Positions 576-53,959 of a stretch of 64,000 bases of DNA are shown here, one piece after another (positions within the stretch are counted from its first letter, which is position 1; each line of letters begins with the position of its first letter). This DNA comes from Piezodorus guildinii (taxonomy: Eukaryota > Arthropoda > Insecta > Hemiptera > Pentatomidae), in assembly GCA_023052935.1 (NCBI GenBank), contig CM041293.1:148126968-148190967 (forward strand), given 5' to 3'. A program made the translations under genes and the position numbers. Below the pieces are notes generated by a model that was given only the letters and a program-made list of their open reading frames with translations, was not told the origin of the DNA and did no database searches.

Positions 576-918
576 TATGCAATAAATACAATTTGTTCTT
601 TTTGGCTATCTAAATCTACTATTATGAATTTAGAAAATATTACATTATATTTTAATGTGCGCTAGTGTTTGTCATGATCCTTTATTTGTAGTCAGACAGC
701 TGATGGTTTTATATTTGACTTTTTTTTTACAAAGATGTGTTCCTAAATAGGTTTAAAGAAAATTAGACATAAAAAATAAATATCACGTAATTGTAGATTT
801 GCAAATAATCTGAATAAATGAAAAGTTGTTCACCGCTTATTATAAGTTTGTTAAAATCTAAATTCATGATTGCATAAGTATTAATGTGTTATAATTCTGT
901 TGTTTTTTCTTATTTTAG

Positions 919-9315
<8,397 letters not shown>

Positions 9316-12090: not shown

Positions 12091-13551
12091 TTATTCGCCC
12101 TTAAGTCTTTGAGAAAATAATGGATCAAGGGTTCTCAGAATGCCTTTTTCAAATTCCTCTTCAGAGAATCTATCTACAGATGACCTGAAATTAAAAAAAA
12201 AAAAAAAAAAAAAAAGTCTATTTTTACTATGATCAATGAAACCTGATGAAAATAAAAGAGTAACATGCCGAAATTTATACCTAGCAGCTTCTCTAATTTT
12301 ATTCCTTGCTTGGGGTGACATTTTAATAATAGCTGCCAAAGCCCTAGCATATTCGTTTTCATCAGCTGCTAAGAAACCATTTCTACTTCCTTCAGATTCC
12401 TCAATGATATCAGCCTTAGGACCACCAGACCTATGTGCTACCATGATTTGTCCTGCTGCCATGCACTCTACAACTCCTAAAATACTTTGTTTATAAAAAT
12501 AAACATAATATTTTTATTATCTTATTGTTTATAGAAAAACAAAAACACCTGAGGTTATCAAATCATTATCACTAAGGAATTTTTAAGATCCAAGTAATTC
12601 ATACTTTTCTATCCCAAACTCAGGTATTCCTTATGATCATTCTGACTAGTACAATGGTAAAAGTCCACTCTATATGGATGTATGTACACTCACTCAAAAA
12701 AGTTTCCATACAGCACGCTTATATTTTGCATAGCTGTTTATTTTCAAATGAACAATTTCCTAATTTATACTCGTACATTATTAATACTAATATTAGATTA
12801 AAAAAAAATAGATACATATATTTTCATTTCATCTTTAATATAAAATGAAGTAGAATGTCATTTGTTAATGATAGGTCAAAAAAGTTTCCATACACTTTCT
12901 ATATTAATCCTATTTGTTTTACTATGACATTCTTTCCAGAGTTATATTTAGAAATCTTATCTCGATAATCAAATCTTAGTTCATTATTAGCGTTACTTGG
13001 GCTTGGGAGACTGATTTCTTTTCAATAAGTTCTCTTCTTGTGATTTGAGAGAGTTATGGTCCGCAGGGCTTATCTATAAGAAAAATTGCATTTCTGTTGA
13101 ATAAAGCACATGCTACTGTACAGTATATACTAAAAAGACATAGAGAGTTAAAATCTTTGGAGGATAGACTATGTTCTTAAAGACAGTAGACCGGAGAATC
13201 CTTGCTGAAACGTTTGCAAATCCTCACATTACCGACACCTCAATGACATCAGAACTAATAGTTACTATGGAATTCAAGTCCACCCAGAAACAGTAAAAAA
13301 AAATACAGTGGTCGAGTCGCAAGAAGAAAGCCTGGAAAGAAATTAAACAAGAAGAAGCGGCAGTGATTTGCTAGGGAGTTTGAAAATAAACCTAAAAATT
13401 TCTGGGAAAGGGTCATATTCTCTTAGGAATCCAAATTTAATATTTTTGGGCCAGATGGAAGGTCAAAAGTGTGGAGGAAATCAACCTCAGCTTTCAAAAC
13501 TAAGAATTTATTTATGGGTGTATGGACACTTTTTTGAGCGAGTGTATGTAG

Positions 13552-13582
<31 letters not shown>

Positions 13583-16500
13583 TATATTATATATATATTA
13601 ATATATATATATATAATAAATATATATATTATATACTATATATATATATATATAAACAGTAAAAAAAAATACAGTGTCAGTCAAGATAAAGCTAAATAAT
13701 ATTAACAGAAGAACATATTTGCTAGGATTTGAAAATAAATAAAAATTTCATGAAAGGTCATATCTCTTATAATCAAATTAATATTTTTCATAATCATAAA
13801 TTAGAATAACCTCACTTCAAAATAAGATTATTTATGGTGTATAATTTTTAATTATTAATATATATATAAATAAAAGCCATTTCTTACCTATTCCAAAATG
13901 TTCATTCCACATTGCATGAAGACCAATTACACTGGATAATAACTCCTTTTTAAGTTCATCATAAGGAATATTGACCTGTAAGAGATTTTTAATTCAATAA
14001 TTTAAAAGTGACAGGGCTAAATTACAAAATGTGATAAATAAAAGAATGTGAACACTCCAGATTAATTAACTATATGGTAAAGAAAAAAACAACTGATATT
14101 TAATGAGTGGATCTAGTCAGGCAATCATTATTGTGTTTGAATTAATTTATTCTACACAGAATTTCATATTTAACATGGTGAAAACATGTTATATTCTTGA
14201 AAAACAAAACTTTCTGACAGAAAAAATTAAAATGAAATTGAAAAAAAAAAAAAACTTTATAAATTTAGTTCAACAAATCCTAAATTAGTAAAATTTAATA
14301 GGTATGTATAAAAAGTTTGTTTTTTTATATTTGATTATATGTTAGTTACAGCTAAAATAATAACTATGTTAAATCAGAAAATAAATTAAAACCTATTTAA
14401 GTCAGCATATATTCAAAAAGACTTCATAATAACATTAAAATACAAATGAATTCTGACTAAATACAAAAGGTACCAAATTACCTTAAATACAACATTATTT
14501 TCAAGAGAAAGGTGTTTGCACAGATCTTGCATATCTTTCACAAGAATGTGATCCTCATTGTGTCGACAGGAACCAATAAACACCAATTTTACCTAAAAAT
14601 ATAACAGATTTTACAACAGTTTCATGTGGGAAAAAAAAATCAGGATTATTATTAATTTGTTGGCACTGCACACACTAATCTGCTAGTTTTTTAGCTTAAT
14701 AAAATTTTAGCAACTCCTTAATTTAGTAATTGATTTTATTTTTATTTAAACAGATGGAATTAATTGTTAAAAAAATCTTGATTGCATTACCTACTATAAT
14801 ATTATTCCTAATTATGAAAGCAAACAGAAATTAAAATAAAATAATACCAAAATTATATAATAATATTCTTAGTTATCCGAATAACAATAATAATCAGTAT
14901 ATAACCGTAAAAGTAAGCTAATAATGGAAACATACAGTTTTAAATTCTTTATTTATTGAGATAGATAATACATTCTGCCACATAAGGTTAATAGGTATTA
15001 GAGCAGTAGGAATTTATTCAATTTATACAATCAAATGAAATAGAAAAAAAATTAAATAAATAGAAAAAAATATGTTCAGAAAGAGGACAAAAATGATTAG
15101 AAAAATAAGTAAATAAAATAGATAATAAATAGAAAAATAATACTACAGTAATGAAAATAAAATAGAAAAAACAGAGAAAAATCTACTATATAATTCTTAA
15201 ACAGACATACAAAATAATTTTAAACTGGAATCGTAAAACCATCAAGTAGCCTATATTGCCATACTCGGCTTATTAACTATTTATATTATTAATTAATCAT
15301 AAAATAGAAAATAAATGAAAAATAACAAAATACATTTATTGATATAACCTTCTAAAAAAAAATTCGTAGCAGTTACTGATACAGCCTACCTTTTCGAATA
15401 TTTTTTCAGGAAGAAGATTTCTTAACTCATATATTGCCTGGAGTTGAAGAGGATGATCTTTTTCAGGACGATATTGACCAACTGATACAATTTTGATTTC
15501 ACCCCCTTCACCTAGATTTGAATAAAGAAGGCTAATATTATATAAGGTAAAACTTTTTCATTAGATCGTGAAGATGGATTTGAAAGAAGATAAAAGTGTA
15601 GCAATAAAGGTAATACTCACTAATATCAGGAGCCATGGGAGATGATTTTAGAGACACAGTATCACAAGGAGGATAAATTCGATGGGTGGATAAACTACAA
15701 TTCCATAAACTATTTATATGATCTTCAGTCCAAGATGAATTCACTATTACTGTATCAGCAAAACTTCCACAAAAACTATAAAGCTGAAATTCCAATATTA
15801 ATTCATAACAAATTCAAATAGGAAAATACAATCAATTATATACTTATTATATATTAATATAATTTATAAAAATTATAAAGGAAATAGAAATTTGTATAAC
15901 ACTTTTTTATTCTTAGTAATATAATAGTAAAGTCACGCATAAGTATTGTACCTAAAAAAGATTAAATCAAATTTAAGAAGTAAGAATCGTTTAAATTAAA
16001 GCATAAATAGCAACTGACAATAATAAAATTTGTATTATTAAAAAAAAGAAAAACATTTCAAAAACTAAATGTGTTACGCATTACTGTTTTATTTTCAAAT
16101 CCCAGATTTCTTCCATATTCAAATATTTGTCAGTTTATATTAAAATCTTAATAACAATGTCATAATATAAGTAAGTACATATGAAAAAAAAATTGATAAG
16201 CACATTAAATCAATAAATAGAGAATTTTCCATAAAAGTACAGAAATGAGTGGTGTATATAACATACCCAAGAAAATATCTTGTAGTAAATTAATTTAGCA
16301 GAAGATAAAAATGGACTTCGAGCAATAGTAGTATTGTTATTGTGAGCCATGTTTCTTAAAGTCACACGTTTAATCATATCTTTTGTAATAGTTGGGTAAT
16401 GAATATAGCAGGCGGTAGTACATTTACCAATATAAGAGAACAGGAATAGAGTAAAAGAGTAACCCATACTATCGATGTAAATATCTAAAACCAATAACTT

Positions 16501-17219
16501 TGTTATTCAATCAGAAAATATATAAAAACAATAGCAAGTAATTAAAGGAAAATCTATGTATATCTTTCAACTCTTAAAGCCAAAAAATAATTCACCTGGA
16601 AGATAAGCAAATAGAGCTTCAATACCAAGTATGAAAGATCCTATTGACTGCCCTAATATAGTGAAGTATGGATATCTCTGGGCCTCAACCCAATGCCGTT
16701 TGTGAAGATAAATAAATTCAATATCCTTCTTCAACGTAATATTGAAAGTTTTAGAAACTTTATTTAAAATTTCAATTGGAGAAGCAATAAGATCACCTGT
16801 ATATACAGCAACTTTGGCATTTGGGTACCTATAATTTTCAAAACATTGAGAAGTTAAATGATGATGAGATGTTTAATGATATTGGTAATTAAGCTTATGG
16901 TGACAATAAGCGATCTGTATATTTCACCTATTCTGAATGGCACGTATAGCACACCATAGGACCCTTTCACCTCCTCCACCAGCATTGCAATATGGGTGAA
17001 AAAAGGCAACCCTTAGGGAATCATCATCATTTTTTATCTGTTTCCTCTTATTGATGCAGTGCTGAAATTTAAATGCAGTAACTACTTTATAATTAACTCT
17101 TGAAAATATCTATATATTTTTAAAGAGAACAGACTAAATATCACCTTTCTTGAAACATATATTAATAAAATTGGAATAATACCAATTAACAAAAGCAAAC
17201 CCATAAAAAGCCAAACCAT
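12091..17219 (-). CDS. Alg11: ALG11 alpha-1,2-mannosyltransferase, complete, 10 exons
   Basis: ALG11 adds the fourth and fifth mannoses (alpha-1,2) to the dolichol-linked N-glycan precursor on the cytosolic face of the ER. Exons: 17219-17145 (ATG), 17061-16928, 16828-16596, 16484-16267, 15783-15621, 15511-15390, 14592-14482, 13975-13888, 12476-12281 and 12184-12091 (stop). Splice sites and phases all agree, giving 477 residues against about 490 in vertebrates. A hydrophobic N-terminal anchor spans residues 2-21. Then come [12 protein letters not shown] (47-58), [22 protein letters not shown] and the GT4-type E-X7-E pair, Glu377 and Glu385, within [15 protein letters not shown]. The start codon is followed directly by the membrane anchor, as expected. 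The intron between the 13975 and 12476 exons holds a Tc1-like relic and its error-like duplicate. The gene converges on diaphanous. Confidence 0.95.
12687..13544 (+). mobile_element. deleted Tc1-like transposon with TA target site
   Basis: The ends are inverted repeats, CACTCACTCAAAAAAGTTTC on the left and its near complement ending at 13544. TA dinucleotides lie immediately outside (12685-12686 and 13545-13546). A second copy of the AAAAAAGTTTCCATACA motif at 12879-12895 gives the left end an IR/DR layout. Internal sequence matches the Tc1 transposase: a helix-turn-helix region, then [21 protein letters not shown] and [17 protein letters not shown]. Stops interrupt it, and the catalytic C-terminal half is absent. 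It lies in an ALG11 intron. Confidence 0.85.
13551..13653. repeat. AT dinucleotide microsatellite
   Basis: Interrupted (AT)n runs of about 100 bp separate the right end of the Tc1-like element from a corrupted copy of part of it. Confidence 0.9.
13654..13850 (+). repeat. corrupted duplicate of 13287-13525
   Basis: It begins with a 23-bp identity to 13287-13309 (AAACAGTAAAAAAAAATACA onward). It then follows the same sequence with many single-base deletions, mostly shortened homopolymers (GGGAGTTT to GATTT, GGGAAAGGG to GAAAGG), up to the GGTGTATA end. The pattern looks more like uncorrected long-read error next to a microsatellite than like evolutionary decay. Confidence 0.6.
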
Positions 17220-33967: not shown

Positions 33968-33977
33968 TTTATTTATT
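33968..33977 (-). terminator. SPS2 polyadenylation signals
   Basis: Two overlapping AATAAA hexamers are present on the minus strand. They lie about 55 bases past the SECIS-like hairpin and about 445 bases past the stop codon. That places the hairpin inside the 3' UTR. Confidence 0.6.
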
Positions 33978-34030: not shown

Positions 34031-34104
34031 GTAACAAAAATAACATCATCGATACAATGACCATTAATAAGGCTTTCATGTATCGAGTCATAGAGTATTG
34101 TTAC
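34031..34104 (-). promoter_or_regulatory. SECIS element in the SPS2 3' UTR
   Basis: In mRNA sense, helix I is GTAACAA (34104-34098) paired with TTGTTAC (34037-34031), 7 of 7. After a small internal loop comes the core ATGA (34091-34088), and UGAU on the opposite side (34048-34045) supplies the partner GA. Helix II pairs TCGATACATGA (34086-34076) with its complement ending at 34049, 11 bp with one bulged U. The apical loop (34075-34061) begins with AA. The spacing from ATGA to AA is 12 nt. All hallmarks of eukaryotic SECIS elements, which recruit the factors that decode UGA as selenocysteine, are present. Seen by eye only; no folding energy was computed. Confidence 0.85.
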
Positions 34105-34419
34105 ACGTTCAAAGATCCAATTAATTTACAATCCAATTCAAACGATTGTTGAAATAGCAAAAAAAAAAAAAAAAAAAATGATTTAATTATTAAATATGGT
34201 GTTAGTTTTAATAATAATTAAAATCAATTAATCCCTGGTTCATTTATATAATAATGAGTGTCTTACATTTTATAAATTTGATTTACTACACTGGATTAAC
34301 ACAACAAAGAATTTCATTAACCTTTTACGACTAATCCAACTATCATTAATATGTAAAATAATTAATTTCAAAAATTAACTGTTTGCTGAAACATTTAAAT
34401 TATTTAGCGAAAAATAAAT

Positions 34420-35577
34420 TCAATCTTCAACATTAATTATAGTTGGATTCTCACTTATCAAAGCTGTTTTATCACCTTCTACCACTGTTCCAACAACCCA
34501 AGCATTACAACCTAATAAATTTTTAAATTTTTCACAAAATGCATTAGCGGCTTGGAAAGGTAAGCATATCAGTAAGCCACCTGAAGTTTCAATGTTTTTA
34601 CCGTCTTCTAAATGGAATTGGTTATTAAGCAATCGATCGACTTCAAGCATTTTATTTATAATTGGAAGGGAGTGAATTTTAAATTGAACAAGATTCTTCT
34701 GATGTCTTGCCAAGTTTTTAGCATGACCCAGTAAACCAAAACCTGTAACATCTGTCGCTGCATGGGCTTTGAATTCGTGCATTAAACCTGCAGCAATTTT
34801 ATTCAGCTGAACCATCGATTTTACAGCCCTTTGGAAAGCCCATTTTGCTTCATCCTTCGTAATAACGGAACAAATATTTCTCCACTTGTTTTCGTTTTCA
34901 AGCCACGAATAAATCATAGTTGCTGCTTGCGTTCCTAGAGGTTTTGTTAAAACTATAGCATCACCAACCATCGCATTATCAGGCATTATTATTTCTGAAA
35001 TTTCACATACAGATGTCGCTGTTCCTCCAATTATACAACAAGCACTAATTCTGGTATCTCCTCCTGAAACTTTACTATCTGCTTCTTGTGCTGAATATTT
35101 AAACCCTTCAACAATTAATGGAATCAAGGCTTCTCTTTCTTGCTCTTCCATATTATCAGGTACACCAAGAATCATCATCATGTTATCACAGCATTGAACA
35201 CCAATGGCATATAAATCACTTAAGACATTAGCACAAGCAATCTGGCCCATAATGAATGGGTCATCGATTAAAGGGTAAAAAAAATCAGTTGTCTGAACCA
35301 AGGCTAAATTGTTTCTTATAGGAATTATAGATGAATCTAAGCCCACACCAATTTTATGAAAACTTGGATGTTTGGATCCTGATTTCTTGCCCCTGCACTC
35401 TTCTTCACTGCATTCTTGTGATTTAAGTCCCATCAAGATGTTGTCTAGAACAACTTGTGGGACTTTGCAACCTCATCCTCGGAGAGTTGAATATTTAGTT
35501 AACTGAAACTTTGGAGCTGTAGTTGGATCCAACACCATTGCTAAACCTTCATTCAGGCTCTCCCTTGGATTAGACAT
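34420..35577 (-). CDS. SPS2: selenophosphate synthetase 2, selenocysteine-containing, single coding exon
   Basis: The enzyme makes selenophosphate from selenide and ATP, the selenium donor for Sec-tRNA. From the ATG at 35577 the frame is open for 385 codons apart from TGA at 35475-35473 (codon 35). This sits in the nucleotide-binding active-site loop STLRG-U-GCKVPQ, where the family has Sec, Cys or, in insect SPS1, Arg. The next residues include the catalytic Lys (Lys38). AIR-synthase-type blocks follow: VQTTDFFYPLIDDP, GQIACANVLSDLYA, LTKPLGTQ, DVTGFGLLGHA and ETSGGLLICLP. The usual GGQ(T/S)-NPW stretch reads GGDTRISACC instead. The coding region has no intron, though an acceptor-like site (TTTAG) lies 3 bases before the ATG. 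Length matches the family (about 390). A SECIS lies downstream. A start at the ATG near 35436 would lose the active site. Confidence 0.93.
35473..35475 (-). other. in-frame UGA selenocysteine codon
   Basis: Codon 35 of SPS2 reads TGA, followed by GGT TGC AAA. Coding conservation continues on both sides: LDPTTAPKFQLTKYSTLRG before and GCKVPQVVLDNIL after. A stop here would remove only the first 34 residues of an otherwise intact enzyme, which fits recoding rather than decay. Confidence 0.9.
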
Positions 35578-50288: not shown

Positions 50289-50446
50289 ATTTCCAAGTCA
50301 ATTGTAACCTTTTCCAAGTCAAATGTAACCCTTTCCATTTCAAATGTCACCTTTTCCAAGTCAAATGTAACCATTTCCATTTCAAATGTCACCTTTTCCA
50401 TTTCAAATGTTACCTTTTCCAAGTCAAATGTCACCTTTTTCTTCAC
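50289..50446 (+). repeat. 21-bp tandem array, left arm
   Basis: About 7.5 units of TTTTCCAAGTCAAATGTAAC type alternate with a TTTCCATTTCAAATGTCACC variant. Because 21 is a multiple of three, both strands stay open and produce spurious frames. The inverted counterpart is 53457-53650. Confidence 0.85.
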
Positions 50447-50689
50447 TTCTAGCCTTAAATATTCCGTTTTATTTATTTATTTATTGAAAAATAATTAGTT
50501 TAATTAAAATTATGACTTTTTTAATAATTTTGGCATATCATATCACTGTTTTTTTGTTGCTTTTTTAGATATTAGATATCAAGTTCTGTTTTTTACGAAC
50601 TAATATTTTTAAAATATTTAGTTTTAAAATAGTTGTTGATTTTGAATTATTAGAGGGGAGGGATGGTTTTTGGGAATAATTAATGTGTT

Positions 50690-52000
50690 TTCGGGTATTA
50701 TAATTACGTTTTTCGAGATGTCTTTTTTATCGCTCGCGTGCATATTAACCTCCGAGAGAAGAAGCAGGAGCTGAAGGGATTGTCATCGAGGAGAGACCAG
50801 ATAAAAAAGCTGGGAAGAGAAGAAAAACAGAAACTCAAGATTACTACTGGTAGCATCTCATTCATGGCTACCGACGCCCGTATTGCCATATGGCAAGGCA
50901 GGAAGACCTAAATAAATAAATAAAACTCGCATTTACTTTTAATGTTTTTTATTGATAAGGGATTAATTAATGTGTTTTCGGGTATTATAATTACGTTTTT
51001 CGAGCTGTATTTTTTATTGCTCATCGGTATTTCAACTCGCATTTACTTTTTATGTTTTTTATTGATATAGGGATGAATTATCATGCATTCGGGTGGTTAA
51101 GATTACGTTTTTTGAGCTCTTCCTTATATCGCTTTAAGTATTTCAACTTGCATTTACTGTTAATGTTTTTTATTGATATATAGGTTATTAATTGTCTTTG
51201 CGGGTCTTGTAATTACGTTTTTCAAGCTTTAGTTTTTATCGCTCATGCGTATTTCAACTCGCATTTACTTTTAATGTTTTTTATTGATATAGGGATTAAT
51301 TGATGTGCTTTCGGGTGGTTATGATTACGTTTTTTGAGCTCTATCTTTTATAGCTCATGCGTGTTTCAACTTACATTTACTGTTAATGTTTTTTATTGAT
51401 ATAGTGATTAATTATTGTGCATTCGGTTGGTTATGATTAAGTTTTTTGAGCTCTATCTTTTATCGCTCTTGGATATTTCAACTCGCATTTACTGTTAACG
51501 TATTTTATTGATATAGGGATTAATTAATGTGCTTTCGGGTGGTTATGATTACGTTTTTCGAGCTTTATTTTTTATGTCTCATGCGTATTTCAACTCGCAG
51601 TTACTTTAATGTTTTTTATTGATATAGGGATGAATTATTGTGCATTCTAGTGGTTATGATTAAGTTTTTTGAGCTCTATCTTTTATCGCTTTAAGTATTT
51701 CAACTTGCATTTACTGTTAATGTTTTTTATTGATATGGGCATTAATTGTTGTGCTTTCGGGTGGTTATGATTACGTTTTTCGAGCTTTATTTTTTATGTC
51801 TCATGCGTATTTTAACTCGCATTTACTTTTAATGTTTTTTATTGATATATAGGTTATTAATTGTCTTTGCGGGTCTTGTAATTACGTTTTTTGAGCTGTA
51901 TTTATTGTCGCTTGTTCGCATTTCAACTTGCATTTACTTCTAATCTTTTTATTGTTATAGGTATCTATACTTTGTGTTTTTGGGTGGTTATGAAAAAACT
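50690..52000 (+). repeat. 112-bp tandem array, left arm of the foldback
   Basis: Eleven units are marked by ATTACGTTTTTCGAGCT-type phrases at 50704, 50990, 51101, 51211, 51324, 51437, 51549, 51659, 51770, 51882 and about 51990. The spacing is 110-113 bp except for the first gap, which holds an insertion. Confidence 0.85.
50745..50935 (+). mobile_element. insertion inside the first 112-bp unit
   Basis: About 190 bp unrelated to the array interrupt the unit between ATATTAAC and AACTCGC. It has an open frame ending ITTGSISFMATDARIAIWQG, then a short basic end and a stop. It finishes in an (AAAT)n tail, as expected for the 3' end of a retroelement. The family was not recognised. Confidence 0.5.
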
Positions 52001-52689
52001 TTTTTTGGACTGCTTATTCTATAGCGCGCGCGCCTTTAAACTTAGTGCTAATATCATTTTATATTTTTATAGAGTGGTCTTTCTTTGTTTATGTTTAGGG
52101 GATTCTGATTACGTGTTTTGAATATTATTCTTTTATGCGCTTGGGAATTTCTACATACCGTAGATATTATGTTATAATTTGAAGTAAAAATTATTTGTTG
52201 TGTATTTGCTCGTTTTGATTCCATTTTTTTACTGGATGTTACATCGCAATTGCGCATTGTTCTAGATCACTTTTTATTTAAGTTAAAATGTGCACTAGCT
52301 ATAAAAAAATGTCATAAACTCAATTAGTATTCCCCGAAACACTACAAACGATCCATCTATCAAATATTTATGAAATAAAAACAGTAACTTAAAATGAGTA
52401 AAAGCGATAACAAATAAGGTTCAAATAATGTTATAAGAACACCCGAAAATAGAATAAACGATTCCTCAATTAAATTATCAAATAATTGTAAGAACAAGTG
52501 AGGAAGTGAGTCCATTATAAAATATTTAGTTGAAAAAACTTACTCAGGATGCTAAAAAAGGAACTATAACTGATCCTTTTATAAAAAAATAATAATAACA
52601 ATTTTTAATAAAAATAAATAAATAAAAAAACTAAATAATGTATATTCCAGCAACGTTATAATGAGAACTAAAAACAAAAAAATCAATCC

Positions 52690-53400
52690 CAATATCAATC
52701 AAAAACTTAATCATGACACCCGAAAACACAATAATTAATCCCTATATCAATAAAAAAAATAAAAAGTAAATACGAGTTGAAATATCCATGAGCGATAAAA
52801 AATACAGCTCGAAAAACGTAATCATAACCACCCGAAAGCACATTAATTAATCCCTATTCAATAAAAAACATTAAAAGTAAATGCGAGTTAATATGCACGC
52901 GAGCGATAAAAAAGACATATCGAAAAACGTAATCATAACCACCCGAAAGCACATTAGTAATTTCCTATATCAATAAAAAACATAAAAAGTAAATGCGAGT
53001 TGAAATACCCATGAGCGATAAAAAATACAGTTCGAAAAACGTAATAATAAACACCCGAAAGCACAACAATTAATGCCCATATCAATAAAAAACATTAACA
53101 GTAAATGCAAGTTGAAATACTTAAAGCGATAAAAGATAGAGCTCAAAAAACGTAATCATAACCACCCGAATGCATGATAATTCATCCCTATATCAATAAA
53201 AAACATAAAAAGTAAATGCGATTGGAAATACCCATGAGCGATAAAAAATACAGCTCGAAAAACGTAATTATAATACCCGAAAACACATTAATTAATCCCT
53301 ATATCAATAAAAAACATTAAAAGTAAATGCGAGTTAATATGCACGCGAGCGATAAAAAAGACATCTCGAAAAACGTAATTAATATTTTATATTAAACTAA
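52690..53400 (-). repeat. 112-bp tandem array, right arm of the foldback
   Basis: It is the reverse complement of the left array, with AAAAACGTAAT marks at 52814, 52927, 53034, 53147, 53263 and 53370. The outermost unit matches the outermost left unit best (GACATCTCGAAAAACG versus its complement at 50704), so the arms are symmetric from the outside inward. Confidence 0.85.
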
Positions 53401-53456
53401 TTATTTTTCAAATAAATAAATAAATAAAACGGAATATTTAAGGATAGAAGTGAAGA

Positions 53457-53650
53457 AAAAGGTGACATTTTGATTGGAAAAGGTAACATTTGAAATGGAA
53501 AAAGGTGACATTTGAAAATGGAAAATGGTTACATTTGACTTGGAAAAGGTGATACTTGAAATGGAAAGGGTTACATTTGACTTGGAAAAGGTTATATTTG
53601 ACTTGGAAAAAGTTTACATTTGACTTGGAAAAGGTTACAATTGACTTGGA
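53457..53650 (-). repeat. 21-bp tandem array, right arm
   Basis: It is the reverse complement of 50289-50446, with about nine units of the GGTTACATTTGACTTGGAAA type. Confidence 0.85.
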
Positions 53651-53959
53651 AATGCTATATAATTTGTAAATGTTTTGTAAGGCTCGCCAGCATCTATTCA
53701 AAAGTTATGCAATATTAAACTTAACCTAACCAGGTTCACGACTGTATAAGTATCAGATCCCAAACTTGAGGCCAGCCAAGTGCCTAATAGGGCTTATCTG
53801 CACATGCGAATCGTGGCATTAACATTCTCTGAGGGAAAACATAACTTAAATAAAATTAATATTGCCCGTTGTTACGGCCAGAAAAGTTATTATTTGACAT
53901 TTTTTTCTAACCGATACAAATCACGGAAGCGTTTAATATAACAACCATCTAAGCTCAAA

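Follow-up and report, generated by a model that had tools for sequence, protein, structure and literature searches.

The window (the whole 64,000-nucleotide stretch of Piezodorus guildinii DNA that we analyzed) contains, on its reverse strand, a gene that we are confident encodes a Sec-containing selenophosphate synthetase (SPS2, also known as SEPHS2), with the UGA at codon 35 most likely decoded by means of a SECIS element in the 3' UTR and a stem-loop in the coding sequence. The genome also contains a second selenophosphate synthetase, which has its own in-frame TGA, as well as genes for tRNA-Sec, SepSecS, and eEFSec.

The coding sequence (34420 to 35577, reverse strand) is intronless and has 385 codons plus a stop, from the ATG at 35577-35575 to the TGA at 34422-34420. 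The TGA at 35475-35473 is its sole internal stop: translation and alignment place this codon at the active-site position, LRG-U-GCKVPQ. This agrees with the initial annotation, which had described a single TGA at the active site of an otherwise intact 385-codon selenophosphate synthetase. The protein contains both domains of a SelD-type synthetase (Pfam AIRS, 4.4e-12, and AIRS_C, 3.4e-19) and matches TIGR00476 (selD) from NCBIfam at 236.8 bits (the cut-off is 125), and its best match in PDB is human SPS1 (3fd5, 1.7e-118). The GC content at the three codon positions is 47, 37, and 26% in a window that is 31% GC overall, which is the pattern expected of coding DNA. Among full-length relatives, the residue that aligns with the TGA codon is arginine in the insect SPS1-Arg rows, threonine in two mammalian SPS1 rows, and cysteine in two mites, where it could be Sec that was written as C by the tool; glycine and other residues also occur. 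An in-frame TAG lies two codons upstream of the ATG, so the 5' UTR may contain an intron. At the other end of the gene, the terminal stop (34420-34422) is also a UGA and lies upstream of the SECIS-like hairpin described below; if this codon were read through, the protein would gain 15 residues, counting the one at the UGA and 14 after it, before a TAA.

We also considered whether the gene might be a processed pseudogene of SPS2, as the coding part lacks introns and the SPS1 paralogue in the same genome is split into at least seven pieces. We dropped this reading, which we consider extremely improbable, because the ORF has no second stop and there is a strong fold beside the UGA. The 385 codons are also free of frameshifts, the protein is 84-86% identical to its three closest relatives, and, of the six SPS matches in the assembly, this gene is the only SPS2-like one (the other five lie within the SPS1 locus).

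The nearest proteins in the databases (P0001 to P0005; 86, 84, 86, 63, and 62% identical to the window's SPS2) include proteins from Nezara viridula and Halyomorpha halys, and three are unnamed. These identities suggest that the DNA comes from a pentatomid-like bug. All five begin at a methionine that matches codon 49, which is 14 codons past the UGA position. In the window's gene, a downstream start would be the TTG at 35436 or the ATG at 35433. The initial annotation had predicted just this: gene models would start near 35436 and lose the active site. We infer that the genes for these five proteins contain the UGA as well. The proteins from N. viridula (P0001) and H. halys (P0003), both 86% identical to the window's SPS2, are probable orthologues, and both models start past the UGA position and are missing the active-site segment that the window's ORF spans. 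P0003 is even named "inactive selenide, water dikinase-like protein," a name that it shares with several SPS1 entries. Thus, the database versions of SPS2 from the closest relatives lack the catalytic segment.

Elsewhere in the window, two other genes are represented by fragments: a formin (FH2) at 878-3837 (forward strand) and ALG11 at 12094-16872 (reverse strand). By eye, we also saw what resembles a foldback-type element at 50290-53652, where tandem arrays (about 21 and 111 bp) on the left side appear to recur in mirrored, reverse-complement form on the other side.

Downstream of the SPS2 stop, a SECIS-like hairpin extends from 34104 to 34031 (reverse strand). Eukaryotic SECIS elements have a non-Watson-Crick core formed by AUGA and GA, with 9-13 nucleotides from the core to an AA, and with helices I and II. 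By our own descriptor and folding, the hairpin has all of these parts. Helix I has 7 base pairs (34104-34098 with 34037-34031); the core is formed by ATGA at 34091-34088 and the opposing GA at 34047-34046; helix II has 11 pairs and one bulge; and the AA (34075-34074) is 12 nucleotides past the ATGA. This is the anatomy that had been reported in the initial annotation. A short helix III lies over an 8-nucleotide loop, which gives the hairpin the shape of form II. Two overlapping AATAAA polyadenylation signals (33968-33977, at 33977 and 33973 on the reverse strand) lie downstream of the hairpin. Two ATTAAA signals (34182-34212) lie between the stop and the hairpin, so shorter mRNAs that lack the SECIS are conceivable.

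How often would such a hairpin arise by chance? A loose descriptor that includes helix I matches two places in the window (34091 on the reverse strand and 24277 on the forward strand), as compared to a mean of 0.475 in 40 first-order Markov copies. Without helix I, the descriptor matches three places, as compared to a mean of 2.975 in random copies, so that form of the descriptor is no evidence by itself, and the weight falls on helix I. Just 83 of 20,000 Markov-1 copies of the 520-nucleotide 3' stretch match the loose descriptor with helix I. A strict descriptor has 34091 as its only match in the window, with 1 match in 300 random windows and none in 20,000 3' stretches, but it was set to the candidate's own values, so this test is partly circular. 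The fold energy of the hairpin has a z-score of -2.55, and 2 of 200 shuffled sequences folded equally well. The SECIS call is made from one sequence, without covariation. Rfam yielded no matches in the whole window at the gathering threshold. The initial annotation had proposed a covariance-model match for the hairpin as a test, and this was not borne out: with E values of up to 10, there were four matches in 521 bases and two matches in 106 bases, none of them to a SECIS family (RF00031 in Rfam), in a search whose sensitivity for insect SECIS elements was uncontrolled.

A second structured element, which is new in the present analysis, lies within the coding sequence. A stem-loop of 16 pairs (35425-35465, reverse strand) begins 7 nucleotides past the TGA and is largely kept in the SPS1 paralogue. 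The stretch that contains it folds at -20.7 kcal/mol (z = -4.00; 1 of 200 shuffles was equally good) and is the most stable of the 366 57-nucleotide stretches in the coding sequence. The stem-loop is also stronger than the protein sequence requires: just 3 of 2,000 synonymous recodings matched its stability. A stem occupies the homologous place in the SPS1 gene, with 15 of the 16 pairs kept. Specifically, 10 pairs are the same, 3 differ at both positions but remain paired, 2 have one-sided changes, and 1 is lost. The same score was reached in 65 of 500 shuffles in this comparison of two sequences, and versions that were slid along the sequence came nowhere near it. A stable stem-loop a few nucleotides 3' of the Sec UGA is what is expected of a selenocysteine redefinition element (SRE), and the predicted element fits the SRE and HRE elements that are described for UGA-containing SPS genes in the available text of PMC4561486.

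The second SPS gene in the assembly is a multi-exon gene on contig C3. Its in-frame TGA is at 464-466 on the reverse strand of locus L008 (around 34019366 of the contig). This TGA is the codon homologous to the TGA of SPS2, and it is followed by GGGTGT; within 1,047 nucleotides past the stop, there is no match to the loose SECIS descriptor. The two proteins are 50% identical. According to the available text of PMC4561486, GGG-UG[C/U] immediately after the UGA is ultraconserved in SPS1-UGA genes and absent from insect SPS2. In the window's gene, the hexamer after the TGA (35467-35472, reverse strand) is GGTTGC. Thus, the pair of genes look like SPS2 and SPS1, and the gene on C3 has the marks of, and is predicted to be, a readthrough SPS1-UGA.

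These marks bear on another explanation for the window's gene, namely that it is itself an SPS1-UGA that undergoes readthrough without Sec, as in Hymenoptera, and that its hairpin arose by chance. An in-frame UGA with a strong coding stem-loop is the anatomy of SPS1-UGA genes as well (in the available text of PMC4561486), and the hairpin has no SECIS match in Rfam. However, SPS1-UGA genes lack a SECIS and carry GGG-UG[C/U], whereas the window's gene has the hairpin and a different hexamer; the genome's SPS1-UGA sits elsewhere; a chance hairpin of this kind is unlikely in the 3' stretch; and a phylogenetic tree places the two genes apart. We therefore consider this explanation very unlikely.

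We built trees with 44 and 24 rows, with the genome's own SPS1 included in just the 24-row tree. The window's gene groups with the proteins from Nezara and Halyomorpha (99/99), and these form, along with three unnamed proteins, a clade of six that is separated from all other rows (100/100). The genome's own SPS1 groups with the SPS1-Arg of Apolygus and one unnamed protein (85/87). The trees included no reference SPS2 from another order of insects, and the branch to the window's clade is long, with a warning of false joining by long branches, so the trees class the window's gene by its exclusion from SPS1. When we searched for heteropteran homologues of SPS1, there was no named SPS1 from a pentatomid among the best 120 of 7,324 matches.

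If the UGA of SPS2 is decoded as Sec, then the genome should encode the machinery for this, and the initial annotation had proposed searching for tRNA-Sec, SecS, and EFsec. All three are present in the window's own assembly (1.2 Gb), along with a PSTK-like gene. The tRNA-Sec family had 19 matches, of which 2 were above the cut-off (both 69.5 bits versus 47). These two are not identical, and ARAGORN reports each as tRNA-SeC (tca), with the anticodon TCA (L009:1501-1588, forward strand, and L010:1501-1586, reverse strand). The other 17 matches scored 42.9-44.2 bits, and both of the two that we checked are tRNA-Ser. Across 14 control genomes, all 14 had matches to this family, and 5 had matches above the cut-off. 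In the L010 copy, the nucleotide just before the anticodon is A instead of the U found in L009. U33, before the anticodon, is near-universal in tRNAs, and L010 may be a weakened or specialized copy.

SepSecS is present in two copies, of which the intronless one matches TIGR03531 at 605.2 bits (cut-off of 224.85). The intact intronless copy is on contig C6 (L017:1282-2847, forward strand), and the multi-exon copy is on C4 (L023-L025). The two copies are 35-86% identical, piece by piece. In one search, two of five pieces of the C4 copy each contained one TAA; the seven aligned pieces are open. For eEFSec, the search was aimed at the C-terminal part alone, which scored 96.9 bits (cut-off of 27), with matches in none of the 14 controls; the most similar structure is human eEFSec (1.7e-60). 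The PSTK-like gene scored 105.5 bits, which is far below the curated cut-off of 382.35, and its best match to a solved structure is PSTK (1.7e-14).

The genome probably encodes a second selenoprotein as well, judging from its sequence. An exon of a GPx gene (L030, C6:17318869-17318741, reverse strand) has a TGA at its catalytic site, in NVATF*GFTPHY. The last exon lies about 20 kb further on. The loose SECIS descriptor had no match in 9.9 and 29.9 kb of the gene's strand; with relaxed rules, the roughly 2.1 kb past the stop contains two weak matches about 1.5 kb on (-8.5 and -6.2 kcal/mol), which are unconvincing. Thus, the search for other selenoproteins that the initial annotation had proposed gave a GPx with a catalytic TGA, but no convincing SECIS near it. 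SelK had no match in the assembly or in any of the controls, so that search was uninformative. Overall, the tRNA-Sec, SepSecS, eEFSec, the PSTK-like gene, and the GPx support the earlier view that this animal still decodes UGA as Sec, and Sec is the most likely reading of codon 35.

For SPS2, the known pathway suggests how this would occur. When a ribosome arrives at the UGA at codon 35, the hairpin in the 3' UTR would recruit SBP2 and eEFSec with Sec-tRNA, while the stem-loop just past the UGA would disfavor termination. Sec would then be inserted at the catalytic site, and the enzyme would presumably make selenophosphate for the synthesis of Sec, including its own.

This genome adds a well-supported Sec-using true bug. 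Among the matches listed in our literature search, there was no paper on SPS2 from pentatomids; the supplements of these papers, like Figure 7 of PMC7376646 (on Paraneoptera), may include stink bugs. The same state is described for two other insects, Rhodnius prolixus and Pediculus humanus, which have an SPS2 with a SECIS and an SPS1-UGA without one (Mariotti et al. 2015, PMC4561486, available text), so the finding is expected for a true bug. As judged by their published description, these insects share with P. guildinii the UGA at the catalytic site, the SECIS, the Sec machinery, and a separate UGA-bearing SPS1; P. guildinii is another species, and the coding part of its SPS2 is intronless. 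In the SPS1-UGA genes of insects, which undergo readthrough and have an HRE, a UGA likewise occupies the homologous codon and is closely followed by a stem-loop, but the window's gene has the SECIS-like hairpin, lacks GGG-UG[C/U], and belongs to another clade. Mariotti et al. could not identify the residue that readthrough SPS1-UGA receives (PMC4561486, available text). Two UGA-bearing paralogues in one genome that have a stem-loop in common, but of which just one has a SECIS, provide a natural test of this.

An intronless SPS2 beside an intron-bearing SPS1 is less expected in a true bug, and, among the papers listed in our literature search, none reported this arrangement in bugs. Intronless SPS2 genes arose by retroposition in placental mammals and in some ascidians (PMC4561486, available text). 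A tentative and rather doubtful explanation is that the SPS2 of the bug lineage is a retrocopy that replaced, or arose from, an intron-bearing SPS with both functions, and that the old locus became the SPS1-UGA, with its UGA, introns, and stem-loop, much as was proposed for ascidians. As one copy of SepSecS is intronless too, genes for the use of Sec may have been repeatedly retroposed in the bug lineage. The ascidians, like P. guildinii, have an intronless Sec-encoding SPS2 beside an intron-bearing SPS1, and placental mammals have an intronless Sec-encoding SPS2 as well (PMC4561486, available text); both are lineages independent of the bugs.
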